From NCBI GenBank assembly GCA_919903025.1, contig CAKKSE010000031.1, positions 1,680-45,608 on the forward strand: 43,929 bases of DNA. The letters run 5' to 3'. Both the position numbers and the translations under genes were made by a program. Origin of the DNA: Nitrospiria bacterium. GTDB taxonomy: Bacteria > Nitrospirota > RBG-16-64-22. The notes beneath the pieces were generated by a model that saw nothing but the letters and a program-made list of their open reading frames with translations, searched no databases and was not told the origin of the DNA. Positions 10,967-43,849 of this stretch are shown here, piece after piece; position 1 is the stretch's first letter; every line of letters starts with the position of its first letter.

Positions 10967-12199
10967 CTAGAACTTGTAGATTCCCTGAACGTGAAGCCCG
11001 TGCTGGTGCATGCTCGTCGTCGTGTTCGATCCGAACATGCCCGTCGTATTCGTGTACGTGACCTCTTTCTCGAGGCCGTAGGCGTATCCCACGTCCACCG
11101 TGTAGGGCCCCGTCGTCCAGCCGAACCCGAGCGTCAGGTGCTGTTCCTGGATCGCCGGGAAGAGCGGGTTCATCGAATCGTTCGGAACCGGGTTCTTTCC
11201 GTAGTTGTACCCGGCCCGGACATTGTAGTTCATGATATTGTAGTCGAGACCCAGCGCGTAAACGGTCTGGTTCTTCCAGTTCAGGTTGAAGGCGTATCCG
11301 TCGTTCGTAAACCCCGGAGCGCTCTTGGGAACCACGTTGACCGTCTTCACGGCGTTCTTCCAGTTCATCCGTGAAACATCCACGGCGACCGTCAGGTTGT
11401 CGATCGGCTTGACGCCCACGCCCACGCCGTACTCGCTCGGCCAGCCGAAGCCCCTGACCTCCGCGTCGTACTCCCCGAGCCCCTTGACGGCGATCTTCCC
11501 GCCGTCGTACGTGAACTTCGTGGCCGACGTGTACTGCGCGCCGATGGACACCATTTTGTTGACCTGGTAGTTCACGCCGACCTTGCCGTTGTATCCCATG
11601 TCATCGACCGTCTTCAGGTCGAATCCCATGAACCCCGCGGCCATGACGACCGTGTTTGGAAACAGCTTCGCTTGGAGGCGGGAGTATCCGATCCCGACCG
11701 AAGCGCCGACCGAGAGCTCCGGCGTCGCCCGGTAGGCCACGGCCGGGACGAGCTTTCCGAACTCGATCTTGGAGTAGGTCTCGTCCGTCGTGCCGAAGAC
11801 TGTCTTGATATCCTTGAAATGCGCCCCCATGCCGCCTTGGGCGAATATCCCGACGCCATACACAAGCGGGGATTTCTTGTCGTTCTTCACGTACCCGACG
11901 TTTGCCATGTAGTAGTTGATCGACTCCGCGTCCTTGTCGTTCCCGAGCTGGTCCTTGTGGTGGAGCCGCGGCATCAGGATGGCGAAGTCGAGGCCCGCCT
12001 GCGTGCCCGTGAGCGTGAGGTTCGCCGGGTTCTTGTTCATGGCGTTGAAGTCATCGAGCGTCGCGACGCCCGCGCCGCCCATTCCCTCATTCTTGGCGCC
12101 CACGCCGATCATGTTGACGCCGTTCGTCGCGAACGCCGGCGCGCCCGCGAGCGAGAGCCCCAGGAACAGAACCACACACCCCCCGATCCTTCTCTTCAT
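10967..12199 (-). CDS. Outer membrane transport protein, OMPP1/FadL/TodX family (copy 1)
   Basis: ATG at 12199; signal peptide then FATNGVNMIGVGAKNEGMGGAGVATLDDFNAMNKNPANL (FadL NPA motif); C-terminal aromatic YKF. Confidence 0.9.
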   Translation of the reverse strand: MKRRIGGCVVLFLGLSLAGAPAFATNGVNMIGVGAKNEGMGGAGVATLDDFNAMNKNPANLTLTGTQAGLDFAILMPRLHHKDQLGNDKDAESINYYMANVGYVKNDKKSPLVYGVGIFAQGGMGAHFKDIKTVFGTTDETYSKIEFGKLVPAVAYRATPELSVGASVGIGYSRLQAKLFPNTVVMAAGFMGFDLKTVDDMGYNGKVGVNYQVNKMVSIGAQYTSATKFTYDGGKIAVKGLGEYDAEVRGFGWPSEYGVGVGVKPIDNLTVAVDVSRMNWKNAVKTVNVVPKSAPGFTNDGYAFNLNWKNQTVYALGLDYNIMNYNVRAGYNYGKNPVPNDSMNPLFPAIQEQHLTLGFGWTTGPYTVDVGYAYGLEKEVTYTNTTGMFGSNTTTSMHQHGLHVQGIYKF

Positions 12200-12356
12200 A
12201 CACGGCCTCCTATGCAAAAAGGTGGACGAAACTCTTCCAAACCCCGTTTGTGGGCGATAAGAATACCAGACCTCGCGGGAATTCCCACTGTTTTTTTCAG
12301 GAGAGAGAGACGGTCCGGCTCCCCGGGGGGAGGAGCCGGACCGCGGAAGGAAAGGC

Positions 12357-12830
12357 CTAAACAAACAAGGAGATGTTCGCGTCCACCGCGTACTCGAGGA
12401 ACGCCGCCGCGCCGCAGACTTCGACGCCGGGGACGAGATCGGTCTTTTTGACGCCCATCACGTCCAGCGTCATCTGGCAGCCGAAGAGCCGCACGCCGCC
12501 TTCCCGGCAGATGTCGAGGAGTTCGGGGATCGTCGGGACTTTCTGCTTGCCCATCCACGACTTCATCATCATCGTGGCCATCGCAGTCATCCCCGGAAGC
12601 ATCCCCATGATGTTCGGCATGGGAACGGGCATCGCCGGGTTGGCGATCGGCGGCACCTTGAGCGACCGGTACTTGTTCTTGTTGATGATGTCCAGGCCGT
12701 AGAACGTGAAGAAGATCCCGGCCTCCATGTCCATGGAAATGGCCGTGGACGCCAGGATCAACGGCGGGTAGGCCATGTCCATTGTCCCTTTCGAGGCGAT
12801 GATCGCAAGACGTTTCTTCTTTTCTGTCAT
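12357..12830 (-). CDS. DsrE/DsrF/DrsH-like (DsrE2-type) protein
   Basis: KKRLAIIASKGTMDMAYPPLILASTAISMDMEAGIFFTFYGLDII; VRLFGCQMTLDVMGV and VEVCGAAAFLEYA; 157 aa with Met-rich loop. Confidence 0.88.
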   Translation of the reverse strand: MTEKKKRLAIIASKGTMDMAYPPLILASTAISMDMEAGIFFTFYGLDIINKNKYRSLKVPPIANPAMPVPMPNIMGMLPGMTAMATMMMKSWMGKQKVPTIPELLDICREGGVRLFGCQMTLDVMGVKKTDLVPGVEVCGAAAFLEYAVDANISLFV

Positions 12831-13042: not shown

Positions 13043-13603
13043 TTACTTATTGCACTTCTTCATGTCGGAAGGCACCTTCCCCACGAGCTTGAGGAAGTTC
13101 TCGAACGGCCCCATGTTGTTCATCGCTTCCCACTTGGGACCGTCGAATTTCAGCCGCCCGAACATCATCGCCCTCATCGGGCCGTATTCGCCCTTTCCCA
13201 TCTGCTCCCAGCGATACGTTTCCGCGTGCATAATGTAGTCGACGGACGTATCAGGCGTGACCGTGGTCGCGCCGCCGGCGGTGCAGATCGCCTTCTTGTC
13301 CTTGCTCTGGATCTTGAGCTCTACGCGCGGATCGTTGGGGCAGTTCGTCCGGTAGATGTGGAGCGCCTTGTACCCGCGCCCCTTGTCGTTCTTGATCCAC
13401 CCGCCCTTCTCGAGATCCTCGGTGAGGACCTTGTCCTTGTTCCACGCCTCGCAAGCCTGCGCCGCCCACTCGGCGGACATCAGGACAGGCGGCCCCGCCG
13501 GAGCGGGAGCGGCAGGCGCCTGCTGTGCCTCGACCTGCCCGGCCACGAAGCTTAGAGCGAGCCCCGCGGCCAATCCTGCCATTGCTGCTCTCTTTCTCGT
13601 CAT
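13043..13603 (-). CDS. Exported SCP-2 (sterol carrier)-like protein
   Basis: ATG 13603 gives signal peptide MTRKRAAMAGLAAGLALSFVAGQVEAQ; C-terminal AMMFGRLKFDGPKWEAMNNMGPFENFLKLVGKV resembles the SCP2 domain core. Confidence 0.7.
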   Translation of the reverse strand: MTRKRAAMAGLAAGLALSFVAGQVEAQQAPAAPAPAGPPVLMSAEWAAQACEAWNKDKVLTEDLEKGGWIKNDKGRGYKALHIYRTNCPNDPRVELKIQSKDKKAICTAGGATTVTPDTSVDYIMHAETYRWEQMGKGEYGPMRAMMFGRLKFDGPKWEAMNNMGPFENFLKLVGKVPSDMKKCNK

Positions 13604-13686
13604 CACTCTCCTCCATCCGCGGGCAAGCAACCCGCCTTCCTAGTTCGAGGAAAAGTCACAAGGTGATGCAACGGTATCGGCAAACC

Positions 13687-13838: not shown

Positions 13839-15239
13839 CTAGAACCGGTAGCTGTACATCAACTGCGCGCTGGTCTGGCTGTGCGTGTTCGTCACGCCCG
13901 AGCCGGCCGTCGCCTTCACCTCCGGCGCGTAGATCACGGCCGCGTCGACGCCGGAGGCCTTGTCGATGGCGAATCCCGCGCCGACCGTGTAGTGGTTCTT
14001 CACGATCGCCGGGAATAGCGCGTTCAAGTACGTGTCCGGAATCGGGTTGTTGCCGATGTTCGCCCCCACCCGCACGGTGATCGGATCGGACACCTTATAC
14101 CCGAGACCAAGCATGAAGACGTTCTGGTCCTTCCAGTTCTGATACATGGTCGCGTCCACGGCGGCGCCGGCGAAGCCCGCCGCCGCGGCGTTCGACTGCG
14201 TCGAGTCGGCCGTGAACGTCATCGCGAAATTCTTCATCGTGTTCTTCCAGTTGATCCACTTATAGTCGGCCACGACGAGGAGTTCCTTCGTCGCCTGGTA
14301 CGCGGCGCCCAGGCCGATCATCTGCGGCCACTCGAAGTTCTTCACGGCGATCTTCCCGGTTACGGGGATCGTCATCGTCGCGCCGCCCATGACCACGTTG
14401 AACGTGGCGCTCGCCTTGTCGCTCTCCAGGTCGGAAAGCGCCGTCTTACTGTGGTAAGCCGCGCCGAGCGTGAGCTGGTCGTTAACCTTGTGGACCCCGC
14501 CGACCTTCGCGGCCACCCCGTACCCGCGGGCCTCGCCGGTGAAGTCGCTGGAATTGGAGAAGTCGAACCGGCCCCAGTTGAGTCCCGTGATGATTCCGCC
14601 CGCCATGTAGCTCTGGAAGCCGCTGATCATCGTCCCGGAGACGGTCCCGAAGGTATTGCTCTGTCCCGGCATCATGTTCATGAACTGCGACCCGCTCATG
14701 GGCATCTTGAGATCCATCCCGGCCCAGACGCCCTCGAGGCTCACCCCAACCTTAGTCTTCTTGTCCACTTCCATGACGAACGGAATGACGAGGCGCCCGA
14801 CGGAGAGCTCCGATCGGGCCTTGTCGCCCGAACCGGCCGCCATGAACGAATCGGCCGCGTACTCGGTCCCCATGCCGCCCTGGGCGAAGATCCCGACGCC
14901 GTAGGCCATCATCCCGACGTTCTTCACGTAGCCGAGCCCCGGCATGATGAAGAGATCGGCTGAGGACTTGGCGTCCGGCATCCCGGTCATCTTGGACGTT
15001 ACGTTGGGCCCGAGAAACGACAGGGCGATGTCGAGCCGGTCGCCCTGTGCCCCGAGGCCGAGCGTGGCGGGATTGTTCATCATGCCGAACGTCCCGTTGT
15101 CGTAGGCCATGGATGCACCGCCCGCGCCCGTCGCGATGGGGCCGTACCCTTCGAGGTTCATGCCGTTCGTCGCGAAGGCCGGCGGTGCGACGATCATGAT
15201 TCCAAGTACCGCGAACCCTAACCACTTCATCGTCTTCAT
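13839..15239 (-). CDS. Outer membrane transport protein, OMPP1/FadL/TodX family (copy 2)
   Basis: ATG 15239 preceded by ggggagggga; MKTMKWLGFAVLGIMIVAPPAFATNGMNLEGYGPIATGAGGASMAYDNGTFGMMNNPATL; C-terminal MYSYRF. Confidence 0.9.
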   Translation of the reverse strand: MKTMKWLGFAVLGIMIVAPPAFATNGMNLEGYGPIATGAGGASMAYDNGTFGMMNNPATLGLGAQGDRLDIALSFLGPNVTSKMTGMPDAKSSADLFIMPGLGYVKNVGMMAYGVGIFAQGGMGTEYAADSFMAAGSGDKARSELSVGRLVIPFVMEVDKKTKVGVSLEGVWAGMDLKMPMSGSQFMNMMPGQSNTFGTVSGTMISGFQSYMAGGIITGLNWGRFDFSNSSDFTGEARGYGVAAKVGGVHKVNDQLTLGAAYHSKTALSDLESDKASATFNVVMGGATMTIPVTGKIAVKNFEWPQMIGLGAAYQATKELLVVADYKWINWKNTMKNFAMTFTADSTQSNAAAAGFAGAAVDATMYQNWKDQNVFMLGLGYKVSDPITVRVGANIGNNPIPDTYLNALFPAIVKNHYTVGAGFAIDKASGVDAAVIYAPEVKATAGSGVTNTHSQTSAQLMYSYRF

Positions 15240-15336
15240 TTTCCCCTCCCCGCTTGTGATGTCTTCAACATCCCCTGGGAAACTACTCCCCAGGGACACT
15301 GGAATACTGAGCCGATTGTCCTTCCCGCCGCGCCAG

Positions 15337-15391
15337 AAAAACAAAACGCCCTCCCGAACGGACCTGCTAGAGGTCCGGACAGGAAGGCGTT
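15337..15391 (-). terminator. Intrinsic terminator inside the fadL2 leader
   Basis: Minus strand AACGCCTTCCTG-TC-CGGACCT-ctagc-AGGTCCG-TT-CGGGAGGGCGTT followed by TTGTTTTT. Confidence 0.85.
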
Positions 15392-15484
15392 CATGACCTT
15401 CCACCGAGAATCACCGCCAGCCATGAGCGGTGAGAGATATAGCGTTGGACGCTTCAACGGCCCGCCCAAAGGCCGCGTAGAGTG
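15337..15484 (-). ncRNA. Candidate structured leader or sRNA upstream of fadL copy 2
   Basis: Starts downstream of a sigma-70-like promoter; ordered hairpins, then a strong intrinsic terminator before the fadL start. Confidence 0.6.
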
Positions 15485-15490
15485 GGAGGC

Positions 15491-15519
15491 TTTTATCAGT
15501 GTGGGACGGCGTTTGTCAA
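15491..15519 (-). promoter_or_regulatory. Sigma-70-type promoter, TTGACA-N17-ATAAAA
   Basis: -35 TTGACA at 15519-15514 and -10 ATAAAA at 15496-15491 on the minus strand, 17-nt spacer. Confidence 0.75.
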
Positions 15520-43039: not shown

Positions 43040-43849
43040 CTAGGATTTGCGTTGGCGGGGAGATGGTCCTCCCGATCTGTCGCGGCTCTGCGGCCGTCCG
43101 CCGGAGGCGGGTTCCTCGGCGCGGTCCGTCTCGGCCTCCCAGGCTTGCAGAAGCGTCCCGCAGAGATCCTTCATGGACATTCTCTCGTCCATGGAGAGGC
43201 GCCTGAGCCTGGCAAACGCCTCGTTCTCCGTCAGCCCCTCGCGCTCCATCATGATCCCCTTGGTCCTCTCGATCGTCTTGCGGGCCGCGAGGGCCTCCTG
43301 GGCCTCGGCAAGCTCTTTTCGAAGACGGGCGATCTCGCGTGTCTGGTTCAAGACCATCTCGATCGCCGCCGAAAGGCAGATGTCGCAGGAGGGGGACTTT
43401 GGCGAAACGAGGTAGCCGGCCGCCTGCGCCTGAAAGGCGTCGTGCAGACCCGCAAGACTCGCCATGTTGCTGTCTGAGAGAACGATAGAGGGCGCGGCCT
43501 GGAGCAGAACGGGATCGGGGTGACGGGTCAACACGACACCGACGTCGAGACCGACAAGGCTGGTCACGGCCTCGGCGGGATTGGAGCATTCTCCCGCAAC
43601 CGAATATCCCAGACGCTCGGCGACGCACCGCAACGGGCCGCTGACGGATTCTTCCTTCGGGTCCTCGACGATGAAGACGGACCTCGGCGGCGCCTCCCCC
43701 GATGAAGCGGCGTGCCGAGGCAAGCCGGTGCGAGCGGCTTGGCCCGATGGTTTCTCCGTATTCGTTTGCCTGGAATCCTTTTCGATTCGGGGGGAAGAAA
43801 AGGAGCCGCGGCGTTGCGGTCGACCCGTGTTCATCATTCTATGTTCCAT
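43040..43849 (-). CDS. ANTAR-domain response regulator with degenerate receiver
   Basis: C-terminal ALAARKTIERTKGIMMEREGLTENEAFARLRRLSMDERMSMKDLCGTLL; N-terminal receiver-like region RSVFIVEDPKEE. Confidence 0.85.
   Translation of the reverse strand: MEHRMMNTGRPQRRGSFSSPRIEKDSRQTNTEKPSGQAARTGLPRHAASSGEAPPRSVFIVEDPKEESVSGPLRCVAERLGYSVAGECSNPAEAVTSLVGLDVGVVLTRHPDPVLLQAAPSIVLSDSNMASLAGLHDAFQAQAAGYLVSPKSPSCDICLSAAIEMVLNQTREIARLRKELAEAQEALAARKTIERTKGIMMEREGLTENEAFARLRRLSMDERMSMKDLCGTLLQAWEAETDRAEEPASGGRPQSRDRSGGPSPRQRKS

Follow-up and report, generated by a model that had tools for sequence, protein, structure and literature searches.

The leader that precedes fadL2 in the window (the whole 43,929-nucleotide stretch of Nitrospiria DNA analysed here) is very probably, as judged from sequence, a transcription attenuator under the control of an ANTAR protein, with a variant loop in its two hairpins. 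The observations behind this reading are the structure of the leader, its conservation, compensatory changes, copies elsewhere, and a link both to ANTAR genes and to one residue type in their products. Beyond this leader, we think there is a reasonable case for a second ANTAR-RNA code, in which ANTAR domains carrying Arg172 and Asn175 would read U-[C-N-N-G-A-N]-G and not C-[A-N-N-G-N-N]-G, loop and contacts having changed together, and which would serve multi-gene Nitrospirota regulons transcribed from sigma-70 and sigma-54 promoters.

The leader begins 28 nt from the stop codon of the GGDEF gene and consists, on the minus strand, of a promoter, hairpin 1, an 8-nt linker, hairpin 2 and a terminator with its T tract, in that order. 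The initial annotation had drawn attention to this region, and all its coordinates on the minus strand, including the fadL2 ATG at 15239, were verified in the sequence. Its promoter stands as to the -35 element, TTGACA at 15519-15514, but the proposed -10 element ATAAAA has 2/6 consensus matches and GATAAA at 15497-15492 fits better (4/6), giving a promoter at 15492-15519 with 16 nt between the two hexamers. A promoter scan of the leader did not accept this sub-consensus pair; 25 of the 29 columns of the promoter box are identical in three congeneric species. Hairpin 1 (P1, 15411-15433) pairs CACCGC with GCGGTG (15432-15427 with 15417-15412) around the loop UCAUGGCUG (15426-15418), and hairpin 2 (P2, the antiterminator, 15382-15402) pairs GGAAGG with CCTTCC (15402-15397 with 15387-15382) around the loop UCAUGAACG (15396-15388); both helices lie as first proposed. 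The 3' strand of hairpin 2 is also the 5' strand of the intrinsic terminator (15337-15391, with its hairpin at 15391-15345 and the T tract running to 15337), and the two structures are mutually exclusive; the sharing of this strand and the location of the terminator had likewise been described correctly. On folding, the terminator by itself reaches -33.6 kcal/mol (z -7.1), and the 150-nt leader transcript has a z of -4.5. The terminated fold has an energy of -69.8 kcal/mol, compared to -59.2 kcal/mol when hairpin 2 is enforced, and termination is therefore the expected default. In a custom scan, the leader was the sole place in the 43.9-kb window with a tandem pair of such hairpins. The leader structure is real, beyond chance, and looks functional.

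Two congeneric genomes (RBG_16_64_22 and NC_groundwater_891) contain the leader at 76-78% identity. In the genus alignment hairpins 1 and 2 are fully identical (23/23 and 21/21 columns), compared to 21 of 48 columns (44%) in the 5' leader, and they are more strongly conserved than the start of fadL (87/100); the 3' half of the terminator is identical in 29 of 32 columns, and the post-terminator leader in 60 of 97. The GGCC-type and GUUG/CAAC hairpins that had been proposed at the 5' end, and two more ahead of the RBS, fall in stretches of low conservation (44% and 62% of columns identical, respectively), and we place them outside the conserved element. In G001, two changes in the terminator are confined to its 3' strand, leaving the 5' strand common to hairpin 2 unchanged, as expected if hairpin 2 itself is under selection. 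A conserved leader peptide was considered and rejected: an ATG inside loop 1 opens a frame, in which the core substitutions within the genus are nonsynonymous or stops. Kissing of the two hairpin loops (UCAUG/CAUGA) was also set aside, being possible in the genus but not retained in other families. Judged by eye, more distant FadL homologues from a protein search (L006-L013) have no such leader.

Searches with covariance models in as many as 396 Nitrospirota genomes revealed about 27 copies of the element in 14 genomes, with at most six in one genome. A model built from the three genus cores found full-length copies in the distant family f7, where retrained models gave six copies in G052, five in G067, four in G040 and two each in G062 and G083. 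Copies were also found in G003 (same class), four f5 genomes and G279 (f35), which are the six of the 14 RNA-bearing genomes not used in model training; among the 23 training rows of model R3 are two antisense fragments of terminators as well as two duplicates. In a free alignment, 20 copies share a common layout, a pair of hairpins followed by a terminator, while the linker varies from 2 to ~12 nt in the parsed copies; the terminator is retained in the copies outside the genus. Hairpin 1 shows compensatory changes: its stems have 90% of their positions paired, compared to 13-47% in slid controls, two-sided changes number 17, and among 17 distinct copies the covariation score of this hairpin was reached by none of 500 shuffles. 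Hairpin 2 varies little across copies, which is what its sharing of a strand with the terminator would predict. The compensation in hairpin 1, the constraint on the shared strand and the recurrence in 14 genomes give good support to the attenuator with competing helices that had been postulated.

Other searches delimit this distribution. A held-out set of 100 further genomes contained no copy, a screen of 296 genomes with a hairpin 1 pattern gave matches outside the genus at about chance level, and searching 21 genomes with the exact pattern of the f7 hairpin 2 was uninformative. Weak model matches in f10, f11 and elsewhere (E 0.05-1) were discarded, being mostly plain terminators. G001 has a second element (L129, C57:44205-44303) ahead of a DsrE-like gene, with one 8-nt loop of the f7 type (UCGCGACG) and one 9-nt loop of the genus type (CCAUGACCG); G000 and G002 have no orthologous copy of it. 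A decayed-looking copy (L136, G017 C39:2746-2846) occurs in an f7 genome without an ANTAR gene and resembles the first of the G083 copies, also in the sequence upstream of it. Family f16 (G071, G206 and G078; L128, L144, L125, L139, L140 and L130) has repeated leader hairpins, GGUCAUGAAGGCC, with terminators, ahead of TonB-receptor-like and methyltransferase-like genes; these leaders are weak model matches (E 0.002-0.02), two that were tested had no Rfam match, and no ANTAR domain was detected in those genomes. They may represent a further family of regulatory RNAs.

Predicting ANTAR targets is difficult, as their known signature amounts to a few bases. Their published plan, seen in targets of EutV, NasR and AmiR, is that of two similar stem-loops, the second stem overlapping a terminator (PMC3369931, PMC7496416, PMC8934654). 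The leader has two consecutive similar stem-loops joined by a short linker, within the 2-25 nt used to define such targets, and its second stem-loop is exclusive with an intrinsic terminator. Both hairpins carry the loop U-C-N-N-G-A-N-G, in a 9-nt form in the window's genus and an 8-nt form elsewhere. The G at loop position 4 expected of an ANTAR target is present: in the free alignment of hairpin 1 it is invariant, with the C and A nearly so, and the aligned copies of hairpin 2 repeat the pattern. A further tally of loops, made on copies found by a search, is partly circular in that pyrimidines and the G were among its criteria. The A1 and C:G closing pair of known targets are absent; loop position 1 is C (rarely U) and the closing pair is U·G (rarely C:G). 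NasR selection prefers the C:G pair, A1 and G4 (PMC7496416), while in the EutV-RNA crystal structure only G4 is base-read, A1 is without contact and Met172 plugs the loop (PMC8934654). Because A1 and the C:G pair are absent here, and A1 is not contacted by EutV, we file the leader RNA as a variant and not as a canonical ANTAR target. The missing A1 and C:G pair do speak against the ANTAR reading, as do the genus loops of 9 nt instead of 8. Searches of open-access full text turned up no account of such targets in Nitrospirota.

All 14 RNA-bearing genomes have an ANTAR gene, compared to 117 of 296 Nitrospirota genomes overall (p = 1.4e-6; this and the p-values below overstate the support, since related genomes are not independent), and the window's genome has two. 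Within family f7, five genomes have both the RNA and an ANTAR gene and nine have neither (5/5 vs 0/9, p = 5e-4). The RNA adjoins an ANTAR gene in seven genomes, lying behind it in G006, G015, G031, G038, G040 and G052 and on both sides of it in G083. Tabulating the residues at EutV positions showed that Met172 is replaced by Arg and Arg175 by Asn in 15 genomes, namely the 14 with the RNA and G202. In all 97 remaining genomes with a resolved ANTAR domain, Met172 and Arg175 are retained and the RNA is absent (p = 6e-17, or by genus 9/10 vs 0/32, p = 2e-8). In the held-out set all 27 ANTAR domains (from 26 ANTAR-bearing genomes among 80 of the 100) are of the Met172 type, and of the genomes checked whose ANTARs are all of this type, 0/123 have the RNA. 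G202 has two Arg172-type ANTAR genes (L234, L235) with no RNA copy detected, and is the sole exception to the association. This exception counts against the ANTAR reading, as does the lack of an adjacent ANTAR gene in the window's genus; association by genome is, moreover, not the same as binding.

Both ANTAR types occur in the window's genus, which raises the question of which protein would act on the leader. The Arg172 type is represented by a REC-ANTAR protein whose gene lies on contig C70 of this genome, with the gene of a GAF-HisKA_2 kinase as its neighbour; the Met172 type by a protein encoded in the window itself (43040-43849, minus strand; PF03861, E 2e-18), which has a degenerate receiver-like N-terminal part, is related to Rv1626, EutV, NasR and AmiR and keeps most EutV RNA contacts. 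Its N-terminal part gives no Response_reg match, is receiver-like by sequence search (Rv1626, EutV, AmiR) and is conserved in the genus. That the Met172-type protein, and not the C70 protein, acts on an ANTAR target here would fit its place on the same contig, the presence of an orthologue in each of the three species that make up the genus here, the retained contacts and the differing 9-nt genus loops. However, in f5, f7, f35 and G003 this loop type occurs with Arg172-type ANTARs only (bar a weak partial match in G062), the 97 Met172-only genomes have no copy, and the genus does possess an Arg172-type protein. We thus regard the Met172-type protein as a possible but less likely regulator, with perhaps a minor share of the probability, and the C70 protein, the better candidate, as most likely the regulator of the leader. 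Directly behind the C70 gene lies a glutamate-synthase-large-subunit-like gene (L107 3-2345, minus strand), a neighbour that hints at nitrogen control. Elsewhere, in three genomes of f7 (L065, L058 and L051/L112; G052, G040 and G083), the ANTAR gene and the RNA copy are followed by a small protein that contains Cys residues (CKLF.DRV.E.LC...FSCEGC) and is possibly a conserved partner.

The initial annotation had named a new riboswitch among its candidates. As a ligand-sensing switch of a new class, the hairpins would form a small-molecule aptamer competing with the terminator. The mutually exclusive helices and the several copies per genome before different genes would suit such a switch, and the statement that no known class applies holds: Rfam gave nothing credible in the window at curated or permissive thresholds, and at the curated score neither the window nor any of 10 loci with copies or weak matches was hit by an Rfam 15 covariance model. 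Conservation is nonetheless limited to the two loops and the stem ends, with the linker free to vary and the same loop repeated twice, so that nothing resembling an aptamer core exists beyond two small hairpins; the copies, moreover, track ANTAR genes, since every genome with a copy encodes an ANTAR protein, always of the one residue type, and the copy is often next to that gene. We consider a ligand-sensing riboswitch very improbable.

A similarly small chance attaches to the view that the element is a plain terminator of the GGDEF gene or a stand-alone sRNA, possibly an ANTAR sponge like EutX/rli55, with fadL2 left uncontrolled. The GGDEF stop lies only 28 nt away, the element has its own promoter, a short terminated transcript of ~150 nt is expected from it, and RNAs that sequester ANTAR proteins do exist (PMC8934654). 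But hairpins 1 and 2 are conserved above the coding start, a constraint that a plain terminator does not call for, and in G003, G279 and f5, too, the genes behind the copies are same-strand FadL, DsrE or SCP2 genes. The sRNA reading, also among the initial proposals, is not supported as the main function, since the examined copies lie mostly ahead of same-strand genes.

We favour the ANTAR-controlled attenuator, and propose that it works as follows. RNA polymerase would start near 15484 and produce the two hairpins in turn, hairpin 1 first. In the default state, the CCUUCC strand would leave hairpin 2 for the more stable terminator, and transcription would stop near 15337. An ANTAR regulator, dimerised (probably by phosphorylation), would bind the U-C-N-N-G-R loops of both hairpins and hold hairpin 2, and with the terminator blocked, fadL2 and the genes behind it would be expressed. 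Protein binding, antitermination, the identity of the acting ANTAR, the signal involved and how far the operon extends are all parts of this scheme that we infer.

The first gene behind the switch, fadL2 (13839-15239, minus strand; PF03349, E 6e-23), encodes a FadL/TodX-type outer-membrane transport protein. On the same strand follow an SCP2-like gene (13043-13630; PF02036, a marginal match at E 1.7e-4) with a homologue behind the G279 copy, a DsrE_2 gene (12357-12830; PF13686, E 6e-49) with homologues behind copies in f5, G279 and G001, and a second FadL/TodX-type gene, fadL1 (10967-12364; PF03349, E 6e-27). The SCP2-like and DsrE_2 genes probably share an operon with fadL2, and fadL1 possibly belongs to it as well. 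Behind copies in other genomes we find a FadL-like gene (G003), DsrE-like and FadL-like genes (f5), and DsrE-like and SCP2-like genes (G279), named by sequence likeness to the window's genes. In f7, the genes that follow the copies encode exported proteins, a protein with CxxCH motifs of the haem type and response regulators; eight of the f7 copies have a sigma-54-type GGCAY-N5-TTGC box 39-71 nt upstream, and sigma-70-type boxes are found at the copies of the window's genus, G003 (TTGACA-N17-TATAAG) and G279 (TTGACA-N17-TAGAAA). The RNA thus most likely regulates FadL/SCP2/DsrE-type genes here and other genes elsewhere, which suggests control of such genes, as well as multi-copy secreted-protein regulons, in uncultured Nitrospirota.

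The ANTAR system is known; an altered loop that tracks changed protein residues points to a new recognition rule. About 27 copies in one phylum have a different loop, tied to two ANTAR positions that touch RNA in the EutV complex. A specificity code can thereby be tested directly through the exchange of a few residues and bases, and ANTAR regulons would become findable where the A1/G4 search model fails.

Among known systems, the E. faecalis eut targets of EutV/EutW (PMC3369931, PMC8934654) are alike in having two small similar stem-loops with a conserved G4, a second stem overlapping an intrinsic terminator, several target sites per genome and a REC-ANTAR regulator beside a histidine kinase. 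They differ in the loop, which is C-[A-N-N-G-N-N]-G in eut and U-[C-N-N-G-A-N]-G here, in the associated ANTAR domain, with Met172 and Arg175 in EutV compared to Arg172 and Asn175 here, and in the genes regulated. The NasR target in the nasF leader (PMC7496416) shares the tandem stem-loops and a leader with transcription attenuation; NasR, in contrast, is a one-component NIT-ANTAR protein and, by alignment, has Met at the position of EutV 172. Actinobacterial ANTAR target RNAs, in those parts of their description that we consulted (PMC8164766), also have dual stem-loops with a 2-25 nt linker and some variability at loop positions 1 and 4; there, no C1/U·G loop class tied to a residue change is described, and, unlike the element reported here, few of these RNAs overlap terminators and many overlap the RBS.
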